This document shows positions 50,147 through 52,152 of a stretch of 64,000 nucleotides of DNA, piece by piece (position 1 is the stretch's first letter; every line of letters starts with the position of its first letter). The notes beneath the pieces were generated by a model. The model made no database searches and was not told the DNA's origin. It saw only the letters and a list, made by a program, of their open reading frames with translations. Both the position numbers and the translations under genes were made by a program. Source of the DNA: Lacinutrix sp. Hel_I_90 (GTDB lineage: Bacteria > Bacteroidota > Bacteroidia > Flavobacteriales > Flavobacteriaceae); assembly GCF_000934685.1 (NCBI RefSeq), contig NZ_JYNQ01000001.1, positions 1,910,501-1,974,500 of the forward strand, given 5' to 3'.

Positions 50147-51052
50147 ATGCTAAAGATCGCTTATCATCCTGCGTACGCTCATCCTCTACCAAAAGGACAT
50201 CGCTTTCCAATGTTAAAATACGAATTGCTCCCACAGCAACTCATTCGTGAAGGCACCTGTACAGATGACAACTTTTTCGAACCAGAATACATGCGTAATG
50301 AAACGCCAATTTTAGCCGTTCATACGTCAGAGTATTTTTACGATTTACTCAATATTACTTTAGATAAAAAAGTGGCGCGAAAAATTGGGTTTCCTTTAAG
50401 TGAAGATTTGGTAGCACGTGAAATCACTATTGCCGATGGCACGATTAAAGCGAGTGAATTTGCCTTAGAACATGGTATAGCCATGAATATTGCCGGTGGC
50501 ACTCACCATGCCTTTACCAATAGAGGAGAAGCGTTCTGTATGCTTAATGACCAAGCCATTGGTGCGAGATATCTTCAAAATAAAGGGTTAGCCCAACAAA
50601 TTTTAATTGTGGATTTAGATGTGCATCAAGGGAATGGGACTGCCGAAATCTTTACCAATGATTTATCTGTTTATACTTTTTCAATGCATGGGAAAAATAA
50701 TTACCCCTTTAAAAAGGAACAGAGCGATTTAGACATTGCTCTAGAAAATAATATGGATGATGACGCCTACCTCTCTATATTACGAGAAACACTTCCAAAA
50801 TTAATACGAGATATAAAACCAGATTTCATCTACTACTTATGCGGTGTCGATGTTATTAATACCGATAAATTAGGCAAATTGGGTTTAACTGTCGCTGGTT
50901 GTAAAGCCAGAGATGAATTTGTTTTACACCTTTGTAAAACTGAAAACATTCCAGTGATGTGTAGTATGGGTGGCGGTTATTCTCCAGATATTAAAACCAT
51001 TGTTGAGGCACATGCCAATACCTTTCGTTTAGCGCAAGACCTCTTTTTTTAA
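50147..51052 (+). CDS. Histone-deacetylase-family protein
   Basis: 301 residues, starting directly after the tex stop. The motif NIAGGTHHAF holds the catalytic His-His pair, and DLDVHQGNGTA and CGVDVINTD hold the zinc-binding Asp/His. The fold is the arginase/deacetylase superfamily; bacterial relatives deacetylate acetoin-utilisation proteins or polyamines, so no particular substrate is claimed. Confidence 0.92.
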   Translation: MLKIAYHPAYAHPLPKGHRFPMLKYELLPQQLIREGTCTDDNFFEPEYMRNETPILAVHTSEYFYDLLNITLDKKVARKIGFPLSEDLVAREITIADGTIKASEFALEHGIAMNIAGGTHHAFTNRGEAFCMLNDQAIGARYLQNKGLAQQILIVDLDVHQGNGTAEIFTNDLSVYTFSMHGKNNYPFKKEQSDLDIALENNMDDDAYLSILRETLPKLIRDIKPDFIYYLCGVDVINTDKLGKLGLTVAGCKARDEFVLHLCKTENIPVMCSMGGGYSPDIKTIVEAHANTFRLAQDLFF

Positions 51053-51132
51053 AATCGCATCAATTATCCAACTATACGCTATTTCGCCCGATTATTACAT
51101 TTCATCTTGAAAAAGAAGCACTTCGTCGTATA

Positions 51133-51161
51133 TTTGACTAAGTAAAACGATAATACCTTTG
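51133..51161 (+). promoter_or_regulatory. Promoter of putative sRNA, copy 1
   Basis: TTTG (51133-51136), 17-base spacer, TACCTTTG (51154-51161): one of the best promoter matches in the window, with no protein gene downstream. Confidence 0.75.
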
Positions 51162-51165
51162 CTTT

Positions 51166-51291
51166 TAAATAAGACATTACAGCATACTACTACTTATGGT
51201 ATAATAAATAATTAGTGAATCCCTAAAACTGATTATAGTTTAGTTGATTAATAGCGATAAAAACCACTTGACACCCCTCAAGTGGTTTTTT
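51166..51291 (+). ncRNA. Putative small RNA, copy 1 (~125 nt)
   Basis: Inferred transcript from just after the promoter to a terminator. It has no open frame of use. It contains possible short hairpins, including CTAAAACT...AGTTTAG near 51222-51242. Existence is inferred from the promoter-terminator pair and the near-identical second copy; it is not shown by any homology I can name. Confidence 0.5.
51260..51291 (+). terminator. Terminator of putative sRNA, copy 1
   Basis: Stem AAAACCACTTGA / TCAAGTGGTTTT, loop CACCCC, run of six T. Confidence 0.9.
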
Positions 51292-51599
51292 AGTTTTGTT
51301 CATTTATCTATATAGCTTGCATAACTTGCATAAAAACAGATTATTCCTAAAAGCGATGGTTATCCAAAATTGTGGTCAAATGTATGTTGGAAAAATTCAA
51401 TATTATTAGTCGAATGCTTCGATGCTTGCGCATGACTCTGATGCTTACTAAGGCAAGTGTTACAAGTTTCACATAAAGAAATCAGCACATACGTTTCACT
51501 TAGCCTATAGACCACTCAAAATTAGAATAATGATCCAACCATACGCTATTTCGCCCGATTATTACATTTCATCTTGAAAAAGAAGCACTTCGTCGTATA

Positions 51600-51628
51600 T
51601 TTGACTAAGCAAAACGATAATACCTTTG
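51600..51628 (+). promoter_or_regulatory. Promoter of putative sRNA, copy 2
   Basis: TTTG (51600-51603), 17-base spacer, TACCTTTG (51621-51628), identical boxes to copy 1. Confidence 0.75.
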
Positions 51629-51632
51629 CTTT

Positions 51633-51758
51633 TAAACAAGACATTACAGCATACTACTACTTATGGTATAATAAATAATTAGTGAATCCCTAAAACTGAT
51701 TATAGTTTAGTTGATTAATAGCGATAAAAACCACTTGACACCCCTCAAGTGGTTTTTT
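51633..51758 (+). ncRNA. Putative small RNA, copy 2 (~125 nt)
   Basis: Same inferred transcript as copy 1, differing by one base within the RNA (C at 51637). It ends 17 bases before the stop codon of the convergent membrane protein gene. Confidence 0.5.
51727..51758 (+). terminator. Terminator of putative sRNA, copy 2
   Basis: Same hairpin as copy 1 with six T; it may also stop transcription from the convergent gene. Confidence 0.9.
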
Positions 51759-51774
51759 GATTTTGTACATTTAT

Positions 51775-52152
51775 TTATAAGGCTTGCATAAAAAGCAGCC
51801 CCATCGCAATTGCTAGAAAAGGGAGTGCATAAAGGAAAACCAGATTATATTGTGGTGTTTTTATTTTATTAAACTTCGCGTTCATCACCTTTCTGGTTTG
51901 TCCGCTGTAACCCATCCAGTTTTTATAATGAACCCCTATAGAAAGTAAAACAAATAGAAACCATGCTTTACCACTAGATAGGGTATCTACATACATCTGA
52001 CTTGCAAATGCCGCAAAAAAACAACCTAAGAGAAACAATAAGCTTATTTGAAGCACAGAAGTATAAACTAAAGCTATAGTGTTTGCTTTTTGCTTAAAGC
52101 GCCCTTTATAATGCCCGAAAATAAAGAGGTATATTTTATCGAATACTGTCAT
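51775..52152 (-). CDS. Small multi-span membrane protein
   Basis: 125 residues with three strong hydrophobic segments (VYTSVLQISLLFLLGCFFAAF, AWFLFVLLSIGVHYKNW, VFLYALPFLAIAMGLLFM) and a basic loop. Lone gene between a terminator and the sRNA repeats. No family recognised. Its last codons are repeated as a relic in direct repeat A, copy 1. Confidence 0.7.
   Translation of the reverse strand: MTVFDKIYLFIFGHYKGRFKQKANTIALVYTSVLQISLLFLLGCFFAAFASQMYVDTLSSGKAWFLFVLLSIGVHYKNWMGYSGQTRKVMNAKFNKIKTPQYNLVFLYALPFLAIAMGLLFMQAL

Follow-up and report, generated by a model that had tools for sequence, protein, structure and literature searches.

The twin intergenic units of Lacinutrix sp. Hel_I_90 that are described here, which lie in a window of 64,000 nucleotides of genomic DNA, are, as judged from sequence, one branch of a multi-locus, sRNA-like family whose members have a common 3' motif. 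It had been left open in an earlier note on this DNA to which family the twins belong, and the answer was found through that shared motif. New here is the evidence that the twins belong to a multi-locus family of putative sRNAs that share one candidate seed and match no Rfam family at threshold. To our knowledge, few examples of small-RNA control are known in Bacteroidota. The explanation preferred here, with moderate confidence, is that the twins are tandem sibling sRNA genes of a clade-specific family, in which a common seed would block translation and the copies are kept alike by gene conversion.

The features of the twins and their surroundings are as follows (window positions):

50147 to 51052, + strand: upstream histone-deacetylase-family gene (PF00850, E 3.1e-54)
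51074 to 51291, + strand: copy 1, type D unit, the homogenised core from promoter region to terminator end
51541 to 51758, + strand: copy 2, type D unit
51107 to 51136, + strand: candidate promoter a, TTG-N19-TATATTTG; in copy 2 at 51574-51603
51133 to 51161, + strand: candidate promoter b, TTTG-N17-TACCTTTG; in copy 2 at 51600-51628
51208 to 51236, + strand: 5' hairpin of 9 bp; in copy 2 at 51675-51703
51244 to 51257, + strand: family motif TTGATTAATAGCGA of copy 1, proposed seed
51711 to 51724, + strand: family motif of copy 2
51259 to 51291, + strand: intrinsic terminator of copy 1 (fold)
51726 to 51758, + strand: intrinsic terminator of copy 2 (fold)
51775 to 52152, - strand: downstream convergent 125-aa ORF, no Pfam match

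Direct repeats 467 bases apart had been claimed, and this was borne out by the repeat alignment, in which 51051-51324 and 51518-51791 form direct repeats of 274 nt with 95% identity at that spacing. The count of two T to C differences over 51074-51291 against the sequence 467 bases on is exact, with the differences at 51143 and 51170, and both copies fold into the hairpin of the strong terminator that each was said to have. The assignment of the upstream gene to the histone-deacetylase family agrees with its PF00850 match, and the + strand from 51062 to 51774 is free of ORFs of at least 40 aa, as expected from the claim that no protein frame is present; the - strand between the copies has two ORFs, of 41 and 51 aa. 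In the sister genome G008, which also has two copies, a 186-aa lipoprotein-like ORF without a Pfam match (L082:7292-7852) lies between the copies and is absent between the window twins.

Two candidate promoters can be drawn for the twins, with TAnnTTTG used as the promoter consensus for the boxes, as given in the part of the source available (PMC9723704). In promoter a, TTG at 51107-51109 precedes TATATTTG at 51129-51136 with a spacing of 19 nt in both window copies; its -7 box TATATTTG is kept in 4/4 copies of the two genomes, and its TTG partner is lost in the sister genome. Promoter b is the one put forward earlier, with TTTG at 51133-51136, 17 bases, and TACCTTTG at 51154-51161; it is present as claimed in both window copies, but in both G008 copies TACCTTTG reads TACGTTAG, and the TTTG taken as its upstream element is part of the alternative -7 box TATATTTG. 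Because each candidate promoter loses an element in G008, the candidates for the transcript start remain two, at about 51142 or 51166. Downstream, the 5' hairpin of type D shows one wobble-to-Watson-Crick change in G008 (by eye). The full type D RNA with its terminator has a folding z of -3.3 to -3.9, and without the terminator it folds no better than shuffles (z = 0.13), so that the low folding energy of the unit is due to its terminator. Another type D hairpin, with UGAUUA in the loop, was considered by reading and dropped, as it is broken in the sister genome.

A first DNA search with the twins in 99 genomes, the window genome included, gave long matches in the window genome and in G008, along with a set of short matches, many of which converge just before the terminator. 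Type D was found in 2/13 genus genomes, namely these two, and among 397 sampled family genomes type D matches occurred only in the window genome and in G630, where the match is weak, lacks a terminator unit of the type D kind, and was judged spurious. The cores differ at 3/221 and 15/221 positions within the two genomes and at 24-27/221 between them. Among the core sites, 0 group by copy position and 15 by genome, as opposed to 7 by position and 2 by genome among the flank sites (Fisher p 1e-4). Since core sites group by genome and flank sites by position, an older duplication with later conversion is indicated; the duplication most likely predates the split of the two genomes, and the site patterns support gene conversion that homogenised the twin cores as far as the final terminator base. 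The earlier proposal, a duplication of a small-RNA gene with conversion maintaining the likeness of the copies, thus gains support from the comparison of two genomes. Copy 2 of G008 is preceded by a decayed duplicate of the histone-deacetylase gene's 3' end, which shows the reach of the duplicated segment; the gene itself is 79.9% identical between the window genome and G008. The twins also present a clean case of gene conversion, with a tract that ends at a terminator.

The motif TTGATTAATAGCGA lies directly 5' of each terminator, and units that differ in their 5' parts have it in common. When two mismatches are allowed over 19 bases, it has 50 matches in 13/13 genus genomes (reversed control, 10), and when one is allowed it occurs in 20/199 family genomes (reversed control in 5), in at least 16 of which a terminator stands behind it by reading. 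The exact 13-base core TTGRTTAATAGCG has 74 matches in 13/13 Lacinutrix genomes, as opposed to 5 for the reversed pattern. When identical twins are counted once, 45/73 distinct core matches are followed by a terminator and 28/73 are not, and the same terminator test is passed by 108/3000 random positions and by 117/3000 at similar A+T. In a wider set of loci, 61 of 85 pass a laxer cut-off, with at least one of these (L100) doubtful by eye. Among diverse units, 53/55 have 0-5 nt between GATTAATAGCR and the beginning of the terminator stem (by eye), and 44 modules, picked by the motif, can be aligned. RNAalifold gave no pairs on the mixed 3' modules, probably due to stems being staggered in the alignment. 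A strict module pattern matched 11 of 395 genomes of the order, and as the match was judged real only in the window genome and in G209, the family is clade-bound.

At the Rfam gathering threshold, no family was found at the units in the window and in sets of 20 and 18 loci; the matches that reached it were one tRNA in the window and, in the set of 20, one DUF805b in L044, outside the unit. Matches to ncr1015 (30.8 vs 60), STnc370 (28 vs 54), rimP (30.3 vs 47) and BTnc231 (24.6 vs 80.4) fell below threshold and were rejected, and the weak alignments of the first three each take in the terminator stem. No description of the motif family was found by title and abstract start in searches of an open-licence library, and a full-text search there with the letters of the motif gave no paper of relevance as judged by title.

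Five loci of the window genome hold nine units altogether (1, 1, 2, 3 and 2). Besides the twins, these are (genome positions):

1440346: single family unit, with a diverged sibling ~200 nt behind it
1575542, minus strand: single family unit
2045489 to 2047102: three family units
near 2443000, minus strand: two family units

Two weaker matches to motif and terminator, at 2441038 and 2045160 (minus), were left out of this count. A TAnnTTTG box is present upstream in at least some copies of types A to E (by eye), and UGGUUA stands in a hairpin loop in type A and in one type E unit of the two that this genome has. A longer conserved RNA, designated type F, was recognised among ten matches that had first been taken as antisense leader sites, in which alignment revealed a conserved RNA on the motif strand:

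1237716, minus strand: type F RNA, ~180 nt
Type F loci: L083, L188, L176, L179, L194, L181, L163, L190, L184, L193

Type F was found in 10/13 genus genomes, the other three having been searched with the exact core only, and has no Rfam match at threshold. It carries the exact motif in the loop of a hairpin that is distant from the terminator and a second UUGGUUA before the terminator, is preceded by TGCGTATATA or nearly so, and has an outer stem that covaries by eye. On the opposite strand upstream of type F in L083, repeats of roughly 60 nt (GGCCTCCCAAATGTTAGTATTTGAAAATCACCCATTTTCC...) were observed.

Type A, a sister type of the twins, has stems that covary. With one genome per species (GTDB r220), the exact type A pattern was found in 30 stretches, from Lacinutrix, Olleya, Bizionia, Formosa, Mesoflavibacter, Oceanihabitans and MAGs. 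The unit adjoins an M3-peptidase gene in 30/30 loci and lies between this gene and purE in 28/30, with a sibling unit behind it in 21/30 and a promoter-like box of its own in many. In an alignment of 35 of the 36 distinct sequences (L216 left out), 94.3% of cells are paired, and 7 pairs have changed on both sides, as opposed to at most 3 when the structure is slid. Further pair types show no excess (15 vs 15.6 in shuffles), and the outer helix is weakest, with 85.7% paired and no change on both sides. The patterns used to gather type A contain the motif and the hairpin loop, whose invariance in the alignment is thus by construction; a fairer sign of motif conservation is that 13/13 genus genomes hold a type A unit in which the motif is exact.

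Among the 28 distinct core matches without a terminator, 10 are type F, and 7 are antisense to 5' leaders, at most 100 nt upstream of the ATG of an ORF of at least 100 aa:

Antisense leader sites in the window genome: L093, L094, L097
Antisense leader sites elsewhere: L046, L191, L182, L152

In another 5 (L153 twice, L146, L185 and L148), the opposite strand has a terminator, and the antimotif CGCTATTAATCAA lies just ahead of it or within a hairpin that precedes it; these antimotif RNAs may possibly be sponges. A further 3, among them two orthologues, are probably antisense within coding sequence, and 3 are unassigned. A recheck of 27/28 placed an ORF of at least 100 aa within 100 nt in the antisense direction 8 times (the 7 and L185) and in the sense direction once (L177, where the ATG is inside a longer ORF). 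In the window genome, with up to 2 mismatches and 66/68 matches classified, leaders within 100 nt number 9 antisense and 2 sense (L123, L133). Neither of the two exact matches without a terminator in G008 is a leader, and the leader sites of the window genome therefore lack demonstrated conservation.

One such leader elsewhere belongs to the gene of a 117-aa protein (L182/L152), which has matches in 11/13 genus genomes. The block ACGCTATTAAYYAA before its start is kept in 6/10 orthologues (G006, a weak match, was left out), of which G009 and G011 were found through the block, G002 differs by one mismatch, and the leaders of G004 and G012 are nearly the same; parts of the block are kept in G010, G008 and G000, and none of it in G007. 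More broadly, the pattern GCTATTAAYCA-N(0-30)-ATG, a site being counted once per ATG, has 375 matches in 28 carrier genomes (reversed control 64) and 239 in 52 non-carriers (reversed control 69), where the carriers are related and the p value is not one of independent samples. Among the matches listed, 100 sites from ten genomes, leaders of ORFs of at least 50 aa make up 13/46 in carriers vs 7/54 in non-carriers (p 0.08). In one non-carrier, G110, the site L356 resembles type F by eye, and some non-carriers may hold diverged family members. By a crude hydrophobicity rule, exported-like genes account for 18/26 leader genes vs 34/98 background ORFs (p 0.003). The duplex energy of the D seed at the seven leader sites, which were chosen for the motif and are not independent, ranges from -12.5 to -18.8, as opposed to -13.6 for the best of 72 background starts, with L182 and L152 inside the background range. 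Two other blocks with GCTATTAAYCA, seemingly conserved between genera and without a long ORF, were seen in L325, L331 and L377 and in L332, L334 and L379.

Since copies of the antimotif stand close to start codons in the 5' leaders of other genes, most of them exported-like by the crude rule, the motif is best read as the shared seed of sibling trans-acting sRNAs that act on mRNAs for exported proteins. In the mechanism proposed, the twins would give RNAs of ~125-150 nt from a family that Lacinutrix shares with its close relatives. Every RNA of this family has a 5' part of its own, in most cases with a hairpin, followed by a mostly unpaired UUGRUUAAUAGCG(A) and an intrinsic terminator. This common seed would block the translation of mRNAs, most of them encoding exported proteins, by pairing with their 5' leaders and start regions, and gene conversion would keep tandem copies alike and so raise the dose. 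The family itself, its multi-locus and tandem arrangement, the conserved structure of type A, conversion, and the recurrence of the antimotif in leaders are shown by sequence comparison, from which we infer that the family is probably transcribed, and that it may pair with and repress a regulon for exported proteins.

Such a seed would need to function with neither Hfq nor an RRM_1 protein, as the window genome has 0 matches to the Hfq profile (PF17209; 5/14 control genomes positive) and 0 to the RRM_1 profile (2/14 positive, one a Bacteroides). Chaperones in other bacteria bind next to the sRNA terminator, and the motif abuts the terminator stem in the 53/55 units mentioned above, which would suit a different role for it, as a protein-binding module for an RNA chaperone or regulator, with pairing through the variable 5' parts or with RNAs that titrate the protein. 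Another binder is conceivable where Hfq and RRM_1 are not found, and the UGGUUA in the hairpin loop of type A and one type E unit would also fit; however, such a module does not predict the antimotif in the leaders of other genes, and the exact motif of type F sits in a hairpin loop well away from the terminator, which makes this reading unlikely. That the units are 3' UTRs, in which the terminators of upstream genes carry a conserved 3'-end stability element, is in keeping with copy 1 beginning directly after the histone-deacetylase gene and with L006, L059, L063, L068 and L071, from other genera, which seem to follow a gene with no clear promoter by eye. Still, this is distinctly improbable given the TAnnTTTG boxes upstream in some copies of types A to E, the + strand between the twins with no ORF of at least 40 aa, and the position of type A, which sits between its neighbours and in many loci has a promoter-like box to itself. 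A functionless mobile or repeat element, locally duplicated, would account for tandem copies at several loci and for the gene 3' end carried along in the G008 duplication, but is very improbable where type A synteny is fixed over many species, type A keeps the exact motif in 13/13 genus genomes, and the D core differs at 24-27/221 between genomes whose neighbouring gene is 79.9% identical.

Beyond the reading as sibling sRNAs with a common seed, a wider one can be offered tentatively, and with considerable doubt: an Hfq- and RRM-free regulon of Flavobacteriaceae in which arrays of sibling sRNAs silence mRNAs for exported proteins, type F, with a CGT-type -10 as reported for ECF sigma factors, links the regulon to envelope stress, and antimotif RNAs act as sponges. 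Nine units, a single candidate seed and the leader sites listed above open the post-transcriptional control of marine Flavobacteriaceae to direct testing, and the family raises the question of how seeds work where Hfq and RRM proteins are not found.

Several known systems can be compared with this family, which in the window genome has the marks of sibling sRNAs, namely several loci with a shared unpaired sequence and their own terminators. One such example is the pair NgncR_162/163 of Neisseria, which is reportedly also arranged in tandem. These too are sibling sRNAs, as far as the part of the report available goes, but from a different phylum, whereas the Lacinutrix family comprises several sibling loci with different 5' parts (PMC9973317). 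Rfp18 of Flavobacterium psychrophilum, also an sRNA of Flavobacteriaceae and set beside the motif family by description only, has predicted targets among proteases and a secreted adhesin, and it pairs, in the portion of the account available, through its third stem-loop, unlike the 3'-motif family, and is conserved in Flavobacterium (PMC9723704). The FopS family of Bacteroides thetaiotaomicron, as described in the available part of its report, is made up of numerous paralogous sRNAs that have a seed in common, carry an intrinsic terminator and pair at the start region of mRNAs for outer-membrane proteins (PMC11697453). While the FopS seed lies in a single-stranded 5' end and has the RRM_1 protein RbpB as a partner, the Lacinutrix motif is 3', beside the terminator, behind diverse 5' parts, and no RRM_1 protein was found in the window genome; with the seed at the other end and RRM_1 not found, the family is not a member of FopS so far as that part of the report describes it (PMC11697453). 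What the two have in common, on the same partial account, is their phylum, a seed shared among siblings, which in Lacinutrix is a candidate, and an intrinsic terminator.
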